From: Zoogloea sp.
GTDB taxonomy: Bacteria; Pseudomonadota; Gammaproteobacteria; Burkholderiales; Rhodocyclaceae
DNA length: 49,136 nt
Assembly (NCBI RefSeq): GCF_028689785.1
Contig: NZ_JAQVCN010000033.1
Coordinates: 1 to 49,136, forward strand
Reading direction: 5' to 3'
The notes beneath the pieces are model-generated. The model was not told where the DNA came from. It saw only the letters and a program-made list of their open reading frames with translations, and made no database searches. Position numbers and translations under genes: made by a program. This document shows positions 39,957 through 46,983 of this stretch, piece after piece (position 1 is the stretch's first letter; each line of letters begins with the position of its first letter).

Positions 39957-41234
39957 GTGGTTTTGGCCAGGCTCACAGACATCGAGCTCCGCAAGTGGAT
40001 CAAGGCAGGCGTGCCCGTCGTCAAGTCTGACGGCGGCGGCCTCTACTTCACCATGTCCGCCAACCAGGCCCGGGACAAAGCCGGCTCCTGGATTGTCCGT
40101 TACCGCTTCGACGGAAAGGGGCGGGAGCTCACCCTGGGGCGCTACCCGGATCTCTCCCTGGCGGTGGCCCGTGGCCTGGCCACCGAAGCCCGCGCCAAGA
40201 TCCAGCAGGGCACCGACGTGGCCCGCGAGAAACAGCAGACCCGCATTACCCGGGCTGCCGCCAAGTCCTTCCGCGAGCTGGCCACCGACTACATGGAGAA
40301 GAACTTTCCGCGCCTGTCGGAGAGCACCATCAAGCAGCGGCGCCGCTACATCGACGGCCCCATCGCCAAGCACCTCGGGGCCATTCCTGCCCGGGAAGTC
40401 ACCACCGCCGATGTGGTCGCCCTCCTCGAAAGCGTGGGCGCCAAGTCCGCCAACGTGGCCGAGATGGTCCTCTCCGCAGTCTCCGAGATCTTCAAGCACG
40501 GCATGGCCCGCCACGTGGTGGCCGCCAACCCCTGCAGCGGCATCTCCGTGGCTGCCATCTGTGGCCGGCCGGCGCCCCGCCGGCTTCGTCTCAAGCTCAC
40601 AGAGGCCGAGCTGCGGGCCTTGCTCCCCGCCCTGCCCTTCATCGGCACCGAGAACACCCTGGCGGTAAAGCTGCTGCTCGTCACCTGCACGCGCATTGGT
40701 GAGCTGACCCGCGCCGAGTGGAAAGACGTAAGCCTGAAGCAGGCCGAATGGTTCATCCCCGACGAAAACAGCAAGTCGGGCAAGGGCTTCACCATCCCGC
40801 TGCCGCCCTGTGCGGTGGCGTGGTTGCAAGAGCTCCAGGCCCTGGCCTGTGGCTCCCGCTACGTACTCCCCGCGCGCCAGCAACGCCACAAGCGCGCCGG
40901 AGAGGAAAGGCACTTCGAGCAACGCACCATGAACGCCATGCTCCACAAGCTGTGTGACCACCTGGGCGACACGGTGCGCCGCTTCACCCCCCACGACCTC
41001 CGCAGCACCGCCCGCAGCCACCTGGCCGCCCTGGGCGTGCCCGTGCTCATTGCCGAGCGTTGCCTCAATCACGCCCTGGGGGGGCTGGTGGCGGTGTATG
41101 ACCAGCACGATTACCTGACTGAACGCCGCGCCGCCCTGGAGCTGTGGGCAGCCTTCCTCCAGGCCTGCGAAGAGGGCCGGGAGTGGTTGCCACCAGGTGG
41201 GAAGGTCGTCCCGCTGCGGGGGCGGGCCGCATGA
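39957..41234 (+). CDS. P4-type tyrosine integrase
   Basis: This site-specific recombinase inserts and excises the element. The 425-residue protein has an N-terminal DUF4102-type arm-binding domain (residues about 5-95, with GGGLYFTMSANQ and LGRYPDLSLAVARGLA), a SAM-like core-binding domain (about 100-190) and a catalytic domain. Catalytic residues visible are Arg246 (TCTRIGELT), His346 and Arg349 (PHDLRSTARS), His372 (LNHALGG) and Tyr381 (VAVYDQHDY). The start is GTG at 39957 with a purine-rich AGGGG upstream. It reads away from the PP2C gene. The site is intergenic; no tRNA is visible as a target. Confidence 0.93.
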   Translation: MVLARLTDIELRKWIKAGVPVVKSDGGGLYFTMSANQARDKAGSWIVRYRFDGKGRELTLGRYPDLSLAVARGLATEARAKIQQGTDVAREKQQTRITRAAAKSFRELATDYMEKNFPRLSESTIKQRRRYIDGPIAKHLGAIPAREVTTADVVALLESVGAKSANVAEMVLSAVSEIFKHGMARHVVAANPCSGISVAAICGRPAPRRLRLKLTEAELRALLPALPFIGTENTLAVKLLLVTCTRIGELTRAEWKDVSLKQAEWFIPDENSKSGKGFTIPLPPCAVAWLQELQALACGSRYVLPARQQRHKRAGEERHFEQRTMNAMLHKLCDHLGDTVRRFTPHDLRSTARSHLAALGVPVLIAERCLNHALGGLVAVYDQHDYLTERRAALELWAAFLQACEEGREWLPPGGKVVPLRGRAA

Positions 41235-42479: not shown

Positions 42480-42749
42480 ATGCAAGACGCCTCAAGACTG
42501 AATGGCAGAAAACGGCCCTCCCCTGCAGGGGCAACCGTACCGGACGCCCTCAGCAACTTTCCGTATCTACCTGATGCGGGATACATTCGGCTGCCTACGG
42601 TGGTTGCCCTTTTTGCTAGCTCGCCAGCAACGGTCTGGCGAAGGGTAAAAAAGGGCACCCTGCCGGCACCCCGGAAGCTGTCTGAAGGCGTCACTGCCTG
42701 GAACGTCGGGCAGATCCGCCAGGCACTCAAAGGGGAGGCCTGGGAATGA
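42480..42749 (+). CDS. AlpA-family helix-turn-helix regulator
   Basis: This is an 89-residue DNA-binding protein of the AlpA/excisionase group. The HTH is in YIRLPTVVALFASSPATVWRRVKKGTLPAPRKLSEGVTAWNVGQI (residues about 36-80), the standard prophage AlpA pattern. In CP4-57 AlpA promotes excision by acting on the integrase; a similar role here is inferred from the family and position. GGAG lies 9 bases before the ATG, inside a hairpin. It overlaps the next gene by 4 bases (ATGA). Confidence 0.85.
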   Translation: MQDASRLNGRKRPSPAGATVPDALSNFPYLPDAGYIRLPTVVALFASSPATVWRRVKKGTLPAPRKLSEGVTAWNVGQIRQALKGEAWE

Positions 42750-43060
42750 CCTCCGACAAGCGCCCTGCCCCGTCCCTGACTGACGATCTTCACCAGGCAG
42801 AAGCCCTGCTTACACCGATTTTCGACAAGCCAGGGCGGACAGCTCACCTTGTTCTCCTCCTGCTGGCGGCAATCTGGCTTGCCGTCGAGCGTCTTCGACA
42901 AGCCGTGCAGGCGTCTGCATCGGCCGATGCCTGGCAATCCAGTGAAGCGGCAACACTGGTGAAGGGGCGAGAACTCGGCCTTGAAGCACGCCCGGGCGAG
43001 AGAATGCCGGACTACCGTGCCCGCCTTGCCGAGGCGCTGAAAGTACAGGGGCGGGCATGA
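42746..43060 (+). CDS. Small unknown protein with one hydrophobic helix
   Basis: This 104-residue protein has no recognised family. It has a hydrophobic helix in the middle (HLVLLLLAAIWLAVERLRQAV, split at residues about 34-54), which could be a membrane segment or a buried helix. Its start lies in the AlpA stop (ATGA) and its own stop overlaps the primase start (ATGA), so it is translated with both. That position suggests a partner of replication or regulation. Confidence 0.7.
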   Translation: MTSDKRPAPSLTDDLHQAEALLTPIFDKPGRTAHLVLLLLAAIWLAVERLRQAVQASASADAWQSSEAATLVKGRELGLEARPGERMPDYRARLAEALKVQGRA

Positions 43061-46000
43061 TCGATACCACCTCCATCCTGGCCCAGTTCCGCCAGGCTGC
43101 CGGGGCCCGTGGACTCCTTCTCCCCGACCATCTCGACACAGACGGCAAGCTCCATCGCTGCGAGCTGAGGGACGGCCCCAAGGGCAGGAAGGATGGCGCC
43201 TACCTGCTGCACCTGGATGGTGTGCCGGCCGGTGGTTTCCAGAACTTCAAGGATGGCTTGGAGTGGGAGAACTGGCGAGCCGACATTGGCCGCCAGCTCA
43301 CCCCCGAAGAGGAGGCCGCCAGCCGTGCCCGGATCGAAGCCCAGCGGGTTGCCCGCGAGGCCGACGCCAAAGCCAAACGGGCCAAGGCACGCCGCAAGGC
43401 GAACGCGATCTGGAACAACGCCAAGCTGGCCCCGGACGATCACCCCTACCTGCTCCGCAAGGGCGTGCCGGCGCATGGCCTGCGCGTGGGCGCCTGGCCC
43501 AAGTGGGTGGAGGTCTGCCCCGGCGAATGGCGGGAGGAACGAATCCCCGGCGCCTTGCTGGTACCCATGCGCAGCCCGTCGGGCACCCTGCACAGCCTGC
43601 AAGCGATCTACCAGGACAAGGTGGACGGCCGCGACAAGGACTTCCTCCCTGGTGGCGAGAAGGCCGGCAAGTTCCACTTGATTGGTGAGGTGTCGCCGGA
43701 TCTGTCCCTGTGCGTGGCCGAAGGCTACGCCACGGCCGCCAGCATCCACCAGGCCACCGGCTGGCCCGTTGCCGTGGCCTTCGATGCGGGCAGCCTGGAG
43801 GCGGCCGCCAAGGCCCTGCAGGAGGCCTACCCGGCCGCCCGCTTCATCCTGTGTGCCGACGATGATGCCTTCGGCGAGTGCTTCGCCTGCAAGGCCCCGG
43901 TGCGGGTAGAGGATGGCGACACCTGCCCGGCCTGTGGCCAGCCCCACAAACGCCGCAACGCGGGCCAGATCCGCGCACGGGAAGCTGCCCAAGCGGTGGG
44001 CGGTGTGGTTGCCTCACCTGAGTGGCCCGATCCGGCCGCCAGGTGGGAGGGCTTCCAGCAGACCGGCAAGGCACCGACTGACTTCAACGACCTGCATCAG
44101 ATCGGCGGGCTTGATGCCGTGCGCCAGATCCTGGCTACCGCACGAACAGCCCTGAAGGACGCGGCCGAGCTCGCTGCGCTTTCCGCGGAAGCGGTGCTGC
44201 CGACCGATCCGGAGCCGGTCTCATCGACACCGGAGGCCGCTCCGGAAGGAGCGAAGGCGCCGCCCGCCCGTAAACCCAAGGCAAAGCCGGCCAGCAAGGG
44301 CAAAGGCAAGGCGGCCGGTGTCGAGGCGTCTGCACCGGGTGGTGATCTGTTCGAGCTGCGCGACGGCGCCGAGGGGCAGGGTGTGTATCGCCTGAAGGTC
44401 GAGCGCCGGGGCGATGGCTGGGCGCCAATCGAGCAGTTCGTCTGCGCCCCGCTGGAGATCACCCACATGGTCCGCGATGCCAAGGGCGAGGGCTGGCAGC
44501 GCCTGGCTACCTTCAACGACCACGACGGGCGCCGCCGCCGGGTGCTGGTGCCCGATGAGATGCTCGAAGGCGACGGGGCCGCCCTGGCCAAGCTGCTGCG
44601 GGCACACGGCCTGTTCATCGGCGACAACAAGGGCGGGCTGCTCAAGATGTACGTGAATCGCTCCAGGCCGCCCGCCCGCGCCCGCTGCACAAGCCGGATC
44701 GGCTGGCACGATGATGTGATCGAACCCGGCCGCTGGTCTTACGTGCTGCCGGGCGATCTTGACCCCATCAGCCCGGAGGGCGCCGAACTGTGGATGCACG
44801 CGGGCAGCGGGGCGGGCCATGCCCAGTTCAAGCAGGCCGGCACCCTGGCCGACTGGCGGGACAACGTGGCCGCCCTGGCGGTAGGTAACTCCCGCCTGTG
44901 CTTTGCCATCTCGGCCGCCTTTGCGGGCGCCCTGTGCTGGCTGCACCCCAACGTGGCTGGGGGCTTTCACTGGTCGGGTGGTTCGTCCCTTGGCAAATCC
45001 GGCCTCCTGTTCGCCGCGGCCAGCCTGTGCGGCCCCAAGGAATACCGGCGCACCTGGATGCAGACCGGTACGGCAGTCGAATGGCTGGCGGCCGGGCATT
45101 GTGACGCCCCCTTGCTCCTCGATGAACTCAAGCAGGCCGGCAACCCCCGGGACGTGGCGCAGGCCGCCTATATGCTGGCCAGCGGCCAGGGTAAGGGGCG
45201 GGGCCAGGCGGCTGGCGGGCTGCGGGAAACCGCGTCCTTCAGCCTGCTGTTCCAATCGAACGGGGAACTCGGCCTCACCCAGTTCCTGGCCGAGAACGGG
45301 GAACGGGCCTATGCCGGCCAGGAAGTGCGCTTCTGCGAGCTGCCGGCTGATGCAGGGGCGGGCTTTGGCTGCTGGGAGACCCTGCACGGCCAGCCCGATG
45401 GCGCCCGCTTCACCGATGCCATCCAGGGGCGGGCAGCCCGCCACTACGGCACCGTCTGGCCGGAGTTCATCCGCCAGGTGATCGCCCACCGGGGCGCCCT
45501 GCCTGGGGAGTTTGAAGCCCTCCGCGCCACCTTCGAACGCCATGCCCTCACCGACAAGGCCGGGGGCCAGGCCATCCGGGCCGCCACCCGTTTTGCGGCG
45601 GTGGCCTACGCCGGGGAGCTGGCCACACGCTGGGGCATCACCGGCTGGCGGACCGGGGAGGCAGGCGCCGCCGCCATGCGCATGTTCAGGGACTGGCTCA
45701 CGGCCTACGGTGGCGAGGAGAACCGCGAGCCCCGCAAGATGGTGGAGCAGGTTCAGACCTGGATTCAGGCCAACGCCGGCACCCGCCTGGAGGATTGGCG
45801 CCGGCCGTCGGTGGTCGATAGCCACGCCCCGCGGACGATGAACCGGGCCGGCTGGCGGCGCCCGACCAAGGAAACCGCATCCCTGAGCGAACGTGATCAC
45901 GTCTTCGAGTACCTGGTCTATCCCACGGTCTTCCGGGATGAGCTGTGCAACGGCTTCGACCCCAAGCAGGTAGAGCGGGAGCTGATCAAACGGGAGCTAC

Positions 46001-46128
46001 TGCAGATCACGCAGGACGGGCAGAAGACCCGCCATCAAGTGAAGGTAAGGGAGCCAGGCGCGAAAGGAACGGGCTGGATGTTCTGCCTGAAGCCCGAGCT
46101 GCTCGAATGGGATTCTGACCATGGATGA
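43057..46128 (+). CDS. TOPRIM + DUF927 primase-helicase (element replication protein)
   Basis: This 1023-residue protein probably starts replication of the element. A TOPRIM primase domain has its Glu at 222 (VAEGYATAAS) and the acidic triplet at 268-270 (CADDD), ending near PTDFNDLH (341-347). A zinc ribbon (Cys275, 278, 290, 293; CFACKAP and CPACGQ) is inserted directly after the acidic triplet. A Lys/Pro/Ala linker (about 385-430) leads to a DUF927 helicase domain, with Walker A at 641-648 (GGSSLGKS) and a Walker B-like LLLDE at 686-690. The C-terminal 200 residues may bind DNA. It is coupled to the gene before (ATGA) and overlaps the next ORF by 8 bases. The arrangement parallels the P4 alpha protein, but the domains differ. 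Confidence 0.9.
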   Translation: MIDTTSILAQFRQAAGARGLLLPDHLDTDGKLHRCELRDGPKGRKDGAYLLHLDGVPAGGFQNFKDGLEWENWRADIGRQLTPEEEAASRARIEAQRVAREADAKAKRAKARRKANAIWNNAKLAPDDHPYLLRKGVPAHGLRVGAWPKWVEVCPGEWREERIPGALLVPMRSPSGTLHSLQAIYQDKVDGRDKDFLPGGEKAGKFHLIGEVSPDLSLCVAEGYATAASIHQATGWPVAVAFDAGSLEAAAKALQEAYPAARFILCADDDAFGECFACKAPVRVEDGDTCPACGQPHKRRNAGQIRAREAAQAVGGVVASPEWPDPAARWEGFQQTGKAPTDFNDLHQIGGLDAVRQILATARTALKDAAELAALSAEAVLPTDPEPVSSTPEAAPEGAKAPPARKPKAKPASKGKGKAAGVEASAPGGDLFELRDGAEGQGVYRLKVERRGDGWAPIEQFVCAPLEITHMVRDAKGEGWQRLATFNDHDGRRRRVLVPDEMLEGDGAALAKLLRAHGLFIGDNKGGLLKMYVNRSRPPARARCTSRIGWHDDVIEPGRWSYVLPGDLDPISPEGAELWMHAGSGAGHAQFKQAGTLADWRDNVAALAVGNSRLCFAISAAFAGALCWLHPNVAGGFHWSGGSSLGKSGLLFAAASLCGPKEYRRTWMQTGTAVEWLAAGHCDAPLLLDELKQAGNPRDVAQAAYMLASGQGKGRGQAAGGLRETASFSLLFQSNGELGLTQFLAENGERAYAGQEVRFCELPADAGAGFGCWETLHGQPDGARFTDAIQGRAARHYGTVWPEFIRQVIAHRGALPGEFEALRATFERHALTDKAGGQAIRAATRFAAVAYAGELATRWGITGWRTGEAGAAAMRMFRDWLTAYGGEENREPRKMVEQVQTWIQANAGTRLEDWRRPSVVDSHAPRTMNRAGWRRPTKETASLSERDHVFEYLVYPTVFRDELCNGFDPKQVERELIKRELLQITQDGQKTRHQVKVREPGAKGTGWMFCLKPELLEWDSDHG

Positions 46129-46630
46129 ATGGCTAAAAACCATCGATTGCGCCCTTAAAACGGCCTGTTCCCTCCAAAACAGAGGGAACACAGGCCAGGG
46201 ACTGGGAACAGATCAGACCACTCAAGACATTGATTCAAAAGGAAATAGTGTTTTATGTTCCCACGTTCCCAGTGTCCCCATCGTTTTTGAAGAGGAAAGG
46301 GAAGAGAAACACAAAAATTCAAGTCATACGTCATTTAATGTACCGGGTGGGGGCGGGCTTCCCGGAAAATCTGCGCCAGCAAAAGCAACCCACGAACACA
46401 CGTGCCGGAGCTGCGGGCACTTCGCCCGACCCGGCCTCTCGGATGGGCTGTGTGGTGGTCGGCCCGACCTGCCCCCCACCTTCGGGCCTGGGCATCCCCT
46501 CCGCCGGTTGCCCCCCAACCACGGGGCCGACTGCCATGCCTGGGCACTGCATCCGTTCTGGTGCCCCCCCTCCATGTGGGAGGGGGGGTATCAATCTTTG
46601 GCCGACCTGGCTGCAGGACCGGACGGTTAG
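46121..46630 (+). CDS. Possible Cys-rich small protein after the primase
   Basis: This is a 169-codon ORF that starts 8 bases before the primase stop, with GGGA 8 bases upstream. Residues about 93-145 hold a plausible Cys/His-rich domain (CRSCGHFARPGLSDGLCGG ... NHGADCHAW) that resembles small zinc-binding proteins of mobile elements. The first 75 codons are AT-rich and contain the first iteron cluster (46166-46270), so they do not look like normal coding sequence. A 10-bp hairpin lies near the 3' end. Either the gene is real with an origin inside it, or the reading frame is incidental to an origin. I lean slightly to real. Confidence 0.5.
   Translation: MDEWLKTIDCALKTACSLQNRGNTGQGLGTDQTTQDIDSKGNSVLCSHVPSVPIVFEEEREEKHKNSSHTSFNVPGGGGLPGKSAPAKATHEHTCRSCGHFARPGLSDGLCGGRPDLPPTFGPGHPLRRLPPNHGADCHAWALHPFWCPPSMWEGGYQSLADLAAGPDG
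46166..46270. repeat. Iteron cluster 1 (GGGAACA boxes)
   Basis: GGGAACA or its complement TGTTCCC occurs at 46166-46172 (complement), 46184-46190, 46204-46210 and 46256-46262 (complement); CGTTCCC follows at 46264-46270. The first two form an inverted repeat TGTTCCCTC / GAGGGAACA with a 7-base spacer. The cluster lies directly after the primase gene in an AT-rich stretch (about 46206-46345). Confidence 0.7.
46564..46588 (+). repeat. Perfect 10-bp hairpin
   Basis: CCCCCCCTCC (46564-46573) and GGAGGGGGGG (46579-46588) pair perfectly around a 5-base loop. It lies inside the last codons of the possible Cys-rich ORF and is followed by TATCAATCTTT. A GGGGGGTATCRA sequence recurs about 100 bases later, near 46685. 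It may be a terminator-like or origin structure. Confidence 0.55.
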
Positions 46631-46983
46631 GCACATTTTTACGTGCGCGAGTTTTGGGAATTTTTTTCCTGGCAGCCCCAAGAGGGGGGTATCGAAAAGT
46701 CCAGCCTGCCCCCCAATGAGACCGGCCGGTACTCTTTGTTCGCAGCACCGCGAAATGGACAGGGGGGAGGGTGGCTTGTCCGGACAGGCCGGATTGCATG
46801 GGAACACGGGGAACAGCGGGAACACCTCGCCGAAACCCAAGCGGGGCGCGGGTTCCCAGTAGATATGATTGTTCCCTCTCTCAGTCAACATAGAGGGAAC
46901 AGCGGGAACATTCCCCTGCCTTCGTCCGTCGCCTGCGCAAACTGGCGTAAAGCCTTCCTCCCCCGGATTCCGCGCGCAAGGGC
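46631..46983. other. Non-coding origin-like region
   Basis: No convincing gene lies between 46631 and 47255. This first part holds T-rich runs near 46634-46669 (a GCAC...GTGC hairpin and a GGGAA...TTCC hairpin) in otherwise GC-rich DNA, then iteron cluster 2 (46800-46910). Open frames crossing it are broken by the repeats and resemble no family. The most economical reading is part of a replication origin. Confidence 0.5.
46800..46910. repeat. Iteron cluster 2 (GGGAACA boxes, 9-base period)
   Basis: GGGAACA occurs at 46800-46806, 46809-46815 and 46818-46824, exactly 9 bases apart, then at 46870-46876 (complement), 46895-46901 and 46904-46910 (again 9 apart). The pair TGTTCCCTC (46870-46878) and GAGGGAACA (46893-46901) repeats the inverted repeat of cluster 1 with a longer spacer. 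Phage P4 alpha protein binds similar GGTGAACA iterons at ori and crr; analogy only. Confidence 0.75.

Follow-up and report, generated by a model that had tools for sequence, protein, structure and literature searches.

A Candidate Two-Part Replication Origin Beside the TOPRIM-DUF927 Initiator Gene of an Integrated Element in Zoogloea sp.

Introduction

What is the role of a short repeat that is packed, in ordered runs, directly behind the gene of a primase-helicase? The question is raised by contig NZ_JAQVCN010000033.1 of Zoogloea sp. (assembly GCF_028689785.1, here genome G000), the 49,136 nucleotides of which are referred to as the window. In this window, a predicted replication initiator combining a TOPRIM primase with a DUF927 helicase (43057-46128, + strand) is followed by two clusters of the heptamer GGGAACA, where a first-pass annotation made from the letters alone had proposed a candidate replication origin. 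Comparison with relatives supports this proposal. Very probably, each cluster is one half of the origin from which an integrated mobile element replicates, and the TOPRIM-DUF927 primase-helicase that the element encodes recognizes this origin. The kind of origin is already known from Staphylococcus aureus pathogenicity islands (SaPIs), phage-inducible chromosomal islands (PICIs), and P4.

Ordered Boxes Behind the Initiator Gene

Ten of the window's 11 exact GGGAACA copies are packed into 745 bp (46166-46910). Cluster 1, the crr-like half (46166-46279, boxes on both strands), begins 38 bp past the initiator stop and holds exact boxes at 46166 (-), 46184 (+), 46204 (+), and 46256 (-), extended at 8-9 bp spacing by one-mismatch boxes at 46264 (-) and 46273 (-). 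Cluster 2, the ori1-like half (46800-46910, also on both strands), consists of three + boxes (46800, 46809, and 46818), one - box (46870), and two further + boxes (46895 and 46904). The first-pass annotation had counted nine boxes in two clusters; the clusters stand, and the count becomes ten exact boxes plus two degenerate ones. The other features it had described, including the strict 9-bp spacing within runs of three and two, the gap of ~530 bp between the clusters, and an inverted pair (TGTTCCCTC/GAGGGAACA) present in each cluster, are all seen in the box positions.

The total number of GGGAACA copies in the window is ordinary, as shuffled sequences average 6.88 copies and reach 11 or more in 9 of 100 shuffles. 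By contrast, the clustering is extreme, with 10 boxes in 745 bp against 0.10 expected at the shuffled rate (Poisson P ~4e-17). In the whole genome, the tandem pattern GGGAACA-N0-4-GGGAACA has three matches, all in the window origin (control 0), and a random scatter of the heptamer, which had been named as a condition that would undo the proposal, is not what is found. The looser pattern GGAACA-N3-GGAACA has five matches genome-wide, three in the window origin and two beside a second initiator copy on contig C82; because the reversed control also gives 3, the position of these pairs is informative and their number is not.

The composition of the region also follows the earlier description. The GC content of 100-bp windows is 42-51% for starts at 46100-46300 vs. 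59-76% for starts at 45500-46000, placing the AT-rich DNA inside and just past cluster 1. A T5 tract lies beside cluster 1 (46284-46288), and no such tract is present ahead of the cluster 2 run. Between the cluster 2 triplet and the inverted box, a stretch containing GGGGCGCGG (46826-46868) recurs in several members of the genus, with no better folding than shuffled sequence. A hairpin in cluster 2 was considered and dropped, as the folding of four stretches did not differ tellingly from shuffles (z of 0.19, -1.12, -0.43, and 0.51); the stretch used for the second copy (L014) spanned the inverted pair and not the region aimed at.

Iteron Clusters Beside Related Initiators

If the boxes belong to the initiator, homologous genes should be accompanied by similar repeats, and boxes are indeed present beside homologous initiator genes, as the first-pass annotation had suggested checking. 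Eight relatives were taken from named contigs; one (L012) ends inside the gene, and six of the other seven have downstream iteron clusters, built from GGGAACA (L006, L007, L008, and L011), CGGAACA (L009), or TGGAACA (L013). Within the genus, an initiator homolog is found in 13 of 23 genomes, and clusters are present at 12 of the 13 loci that could be parsed among 16 rows (GGGAACA at six, including the window, CGGAACA at four, and TGGAACA at two); the genus set and the named-relative set share source genomes.

A broader test covered phage, plasmid, viral-contig, and genome loci, 56 of which were kept from 81 once near-duplicates were removed. Within 600 bp past the gene, the 7-8-mer repeated most often was scored, with a score of at least 20 taken as a pass. 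The initiator gene passes at 37 of the 56 non-redundant loci, vs. 5 of 509 controls placed where other long frames of these loci end; the five include at least one iteron array (GGTGGAAC in L175). Without the nine loci to which the repeat pattern had led in the first place, 30 of 47 pass. The iteron sequences can be described as variants of a template such as GTGGNNACA, including GTGGGAACA, GTGGCAACA, GTGGCTACA, GTGGTTACA, and GGTGGAACA, with shorter forms such as GGTGGACA and TGGGACA. Four loci fetched by protein similarity stand outside the 81: no clear iteron of this kind was seen in L200, L202, or L211, and no iterons stood out past the initiator gene in L069.

Some loci show unusual combinations. 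L192 (DUF5906 by Pfam) and L199 (assigned by alignment) encode TOPRIM proteins with another, DUF5906-like helicase type, and their CCCGGAACA arrays have the layout seen in DUF927 elements, as though helicase types and origins had been swapped. In an Escherichia coli island (L208) with P4-like genes (polarity suppression and ogr/Delta-like) and a retron, a TOPRIM-DUF927 initiator with GGTGGAACA iterons replaces the alpha-type protein. In a 9.8 kb plasmid of Photobacterium toruni (L207), the annotation of which includes a protelomerase and a ClpP-like head protease, at least 13 GTGTAAC repeats lie around the end of a DUF927 gene.

Two Proposed Halves That Can Lie Apart

The box offsets of cluster 2 (0, 9, 18, inverted 70, then 95 and 104) are kept within one base in L006, L007, L008, and L193. 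In L193, L196, L197, and L198, a half-cluster lies ~1.8 kb before the gene end, inside the initiator gene between the TOPRIM and DUF927 parts; in L197 and L198, the position of the inverted boxes departs from the L193 pattern. In many viral contigs, all boxes are found in one ~250 bp stretch directly past the gene. An A4/T4 tract is present in the 15 nt ahead of 28 of 39 iteron runs, compared to 6.6% of random 15-mers. These layouts lead us to infer that the origin has two parts and that these can become separated. As a separate observation, L197 also has a control region away from the initiator with seven TAGGTACA repeats (score 39.9).

The Predicted Initiator and Its C-Terminal Domain

The initiator has Pfam matches to TOPRIM and DUF927, with an EGYATA motif in the primase (aa 222), an AAA+ helicase (aa 440-725), and a predicted C-terminal winged helix. 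A search with its family profile hits the SaPIbov1 initiator (8tch, E 3.6e-33) as well as Cch (5dgk, E 2.2e-27) of the staphylococcal cassette chromosome mec (SCCmec), the third match (E 0.89) being noise. Likewise, an AlphaFold2 (AF2) model of residues 416-1023, with a predicted local distance difference test (pLDDT) score of 85.7, has Cch and SaPIbov1 Rep as its top Foldseek matches (E ~1e-20). The C-terminal domain (45760-46125, + strand, aa 902-1023; AF2 pLDDT 81.7) is predicted to be a winged helix and is our proposed iteron reader. Its best Foldseek match is TcpK (5vfx, prob 0.99, E 0.06), with 8tch_A at rank 6 and no match below 0.001. A winged-helix structure of the DNA-binding domain of P4 alpha is in the PDB; it is absent among the 50 Foldseek matches listed for the window domain.

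These parts suggest how the origin might be used. The C-terminal winged helix of the TOPRIM-DUF927 protein encoded upstream would bind the 9-bp-spaced iterons of each half, the DUF927 ring, an AAA+ helicase akin to SaPI Rep and Cch, would assemble at the iterons and open the nearby AT-rich DNA, and the TOPRIM domain, judging from its family, would make the primers.

Iteron Class and a Residue of the Wing

If the C-terminal domain reads the iterons, the two might be expected to change together. Nine close initiators share 80-99% identity in the AAA+ part vs. 49-90% in the last 84 residues. A tail alignment drew our attention to the position two residues before the conserved Arg of the wing strand, which in the window is Lys996 (codon 46042-46044, + strand). 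In the discovery loci, Lys or Arg at this position occurs with GGGAACA-like iterons, and mostly other residues occur with other iterons. The covariation was assessed with 38 discovery and 34 test loci that had a nameable iteron. The test loci came from 87 new loci with 48 unique tails, leaving out those with no clear iteron as well as L286 and L304, which repeat discovery types. Iterons were entered by hand, some by eye and some from only 4-5 copies (L271, L278, L350, and L351).

A strict rule, pairing [GC]GGAACA with Lys/Arg, was fixed before the new loci were fetched, and it failed on them: such iterons were found in 2 of 10 Lys/Arg loci vs. 1 of 24 others (p = 0.20). It had already been broken in the discovery set by L204 and L213, beyond two exceptions named beforehand. 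A relaxed rule adds the GGGACA type, which is one base shorter and was present in the discovery set; it was written once the new iterons were known and is partly post hoc. Under it, the test loci divide as 8 of 10 vs. 1 of 24 (p 2e-5) and the discovery loci as 22 of 23 vs. 1 of 15; adding five genus loci brings the test table to 11 of 15 vs. 1 of 24. The exceptions to the relaxed rule are L175 and L174 (discovery), L364, L359, and L339 (test), and L376 and L380 (genus).

It is conceivable that the covariation reflects shared ancestry rather than recognition, with similar initiators having simply inherited similar iterons, and we regard this explanation as a serious though rather doubtful one. 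In its favor, the loci share a common descent, the strict rule did not hold on new loci, and even the relaxed rule is broken by Lys with TGGAACA (L376 and L380) and by Ser with CGGAACA (L174 and L339). However, when pairs with differing wing residues and no shared branch are drawn from a tree of the helicase core, 13 agree, 1 disagrees, and 2 are uninformative (p 0.002); with the five genus loci added, 12 of 16 agree, 1 disagrees, and 3 are uninformative (p = 0.003). In addition, iteron class differs in just 2 of 28 same-residue pairs. Both pair tests contain discovery loci. Within the genus, the residue two further N-terminal is Gln/Lys in G-type, Pro/Ala in C-type, and Met in T-type initiators, in small numbers.

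Overall, iteron class tends to track this beta-wing residue of the predicted winged helix. The proposed link is partly readable: Lys/Arg goes with a [G/C]GG-A(A)-C iteron, and Asn, Gln, Leu, Ser, Thr, and Ala go mostly with others.

Co-Resident Copies with Different Iterons

The second initiator copy in the genome (L014, on contig C82) is 83% identical to that of the window. Of the boxes in its origin that keep an intact GGAACA core, seven are CGGAACA and two are AGGAACA, the latter being the inverted pair of cluster 2. Iterons are nearly uniform within one element and different between elements. A frame of ~300 codons, apparently coiled-coil-like, lies at this locus between the initiator and the zinc-ribbon open reading frame (ORF) that holds iterons, so that cluster 1 follows a small ORF there and not the initiator. 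As G000 is a 5.08 Mb draft in 128 contigs with an estimated contamination of 2.74%, it is assumed that the two copies share one cell.

Five genomes have two typed copies; their iterons differ in three (G000, G765, and G074) and are the same in two (G767 and G706). Avoidance of cross-talk between co-resident copies is therefore possible, but it is no rule. Because the iterons accompany the initiator gene in a repeated layout, are nearly uniform within an element, and vary in step with the wing, each element would appear mainly to read its own origin. A broader proposal, which we put forward tentatively as perhaps somewhat less probable than its negation, is that DUF927 initiators recognize their origins via the beta-wing with a partly readable residue-iteron link, and that the link drifts fast enough to leave paralogous elements of one cell with separable half-origins that are blind to each other. 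Such a system would amount to a sequence-readable incompatibility typing of integrative elements.

Literature searches returned only PMC7581432 for DUF927 together with iterons, and no report of separable half-origins or of differing co-resident origins; among titles and abstract openings, with subscription papers thinly covered, none concerned iteron-wing covariation or half-origins inside an initiator gene.

Other Parts of the Element and Alternative Readings

The element further encodes a tyrosine integrase (39957-41234, + strand; PF00589, E 1.5e-21, and PF13356, E 5.1e-18) and a small AlpA-like regulator or excisionase (42480-42749, + strand), the latter a weak match under the curated cut-off (PF05930, E 0.0013). 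A small ORF (46121-46630, + strand) overlaps the initiator stop and has no Pfam or PHROGs match; its zinc-ribbon-like frame, with a C-x2-C-x-H motif, has similar counterparts, the window included, in 8 of 10 loci examined. The contig ends inside a DUF3987 gene, and the element is therefore incomplete.

Several observations weigh against an origin served by the adjacent initiator. The window itself fails the 600-bp test with a score of 12.2, because its halves are split and 600 bp covers only the first, and 19 of the 56 loci fail as well. L010 has no iterons in the stretch examined past the gene; this initiator (L010/L381, genome G769) has a C-type wing, and neither the downstream DNA nor the genome-wide pair pattern revealed a C-type cluster, which is not decisive since G769 is in ~730 contigs. 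The two iteron sets are separated by 530 bp, whereas the PICI origin is compact. Reverse scans started from the arrays, with initiators sought in the fetched neighborhoods. In an order-level sample, three-box GGAACA arrays occur in 8 of 399 genomes, with a recognizable initiator nearby in six (G000, G603, G420, G677, G706, and G524, not G752 or G388). In a class-level sample, arrays occur in 14 of 369 genomes, with an initiator in the fetched neighborhoods of only four (G000, G272, G121, and G074). A viral scan of the array pattern showed, among the matches listed and in the DNA fetched for them, an initiator only for L069 and L103.

The boxes might instead be operators at which a regulator encoded by the element, such as the AlpA-like protein, controls the transcription of downstream genes. 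Boxes in both orientations near gene starts, and the AlpA-like gene itself, would fit this role. However, in many elements, the boxes come after the initiator gene and not ahead of an operon, they lie inside the initiator gene in L193, L196, L197, and L198, and they covary with the initiator's own tail; we consider operators improbable. Still less probable is a role in transfer, in which the boxes would serve an origin of transfer (oriT) as accessory sites, like those bound by TcpK on pCW3. In favor of this, TcpK tops the structural matches of the C-terminal domain, and sections of PMC6137059 describe it as binding tandem 9-nt boxes at oriT. Yet the domain belongs to a replicative helicase, and no relaxase match was found among ten element proteins scanned on a contig that ends within the element. 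Retention of the boxes as coding repeats, for the sake of the protein of 46121-46630, would fit the position of cluster 1 inside that frame and the similar frames at other loci, but it is hardly credible, as cluster 2 lies outside the frame, boxes occur on both strands and in differing codon contexts, and many elements keep them outside such a frame.

Comparison with Known Systems

Reading the two clusters as the halves of an origin places a varied and little-studied group of DUF927 elements in the replication world of SaPIs, PICIs, and P4, with many of their origins findable and typable from sequence. The natural pairs also make it testable how initiator and origin change specificity jointly, and whether that decides which mobile elements share a cell.

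TcpK resembles the window system in the predicted fold of the C-terminal domain and in its 9-nt tandem boxes. In the portions of PMC6137059 consulted here, its beta-wing reads these boxes in the major groove, with the usual recognition helix making a single backbone contact. TcpK differs in being a separate relaxosome protein outside any helicase, with a role in conjugation.

The resemblance to P4 ori/crr, noted in the first-pass annotation, is borne out by the P4 record. In both systems, there are two separated clusters, with similar spacings, one right past the gene. P4 crr starts ~45 bp past the alpha stop, directly behind the gene, with boxes at 51, 65, 83, 126, and 135 bp in the relative orientation a-b-b-a-a, and holds a second copy of the box set further on; the boxes of window cluster 1 lie 38, 56, 76, and 128 bp past the stop, with degenerate ones at 136 and 145 bp, in the order a-b-b-a-(a)-(a). 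Elsewhere in P4, ori1 resembles cluster 2 in having three boxes, one inverted box, and two more over ~100 bp, although the inverted box is 22 bp from the triplet vs. 52 bp in the window. The boxes point the opposite way relative to the gene, and the P4 iteron (GGTGAACA, type 1, in ori1 and crr) is not GGGAACA. The first-pass annotation had held that both iteron and protein type differ from P4. This is correct for the iteron and for the helicase, which is DUF927 in the window and D5-type in alpha (Pox_D5, D5_N, and DUF5906 by Pfam), but the primase part is homologous to that of alpha (hhalign 99.6%, E 1e-24, 38% identity over 171 columns), with a TOPRIM module and EGYATA in both. A P4-alpha-like DNA-binding domain was looked for and rejected, as hhalign found no similarity in the window initiator to the last 136 residues of alpha. 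The window region seems to work like ori/crr but is not that of P4.

For the helicase part, which is of the SaPIbov1 Rep/Cch kind, SaPI and PICI replicons are nearer kin than P4. SaPIbov1 Rep, SCCmec Cch, and the pri-rep-ori unit of EcCICFT073 share with the window a homologous AAA+ initiator helicase, and, as far as parts of PMC6092414 and PMC7581432 describe them, an origin that contains AT-rich DNA and has its iterons immediately 3' of the gene. Passages of PMC6092414 report for PICIs two iteron sets, one on either side of AT-rich DNA and both 3' of the initiator gene, with gene and origin together sustaining a plasmid. Passages of PMC7581432 report that the C-terminal domain of SaPI Rep recognizes the downstream iteron origin, that binding of Cch2 to such repeats was shown, and that Cch contains DUF927. 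The window system differs in that its helicase is fused to an EGYATA TOPRIM primase and in that its iteron sets lie 530 bp apart, or ~1.8 kb apart and across the gene in L193, L196, L197, and L198. From this comparison, similar half-modules would seem to underlie both known layouts, arranged compactly in the PICI origin and split into ori and crr in P4.
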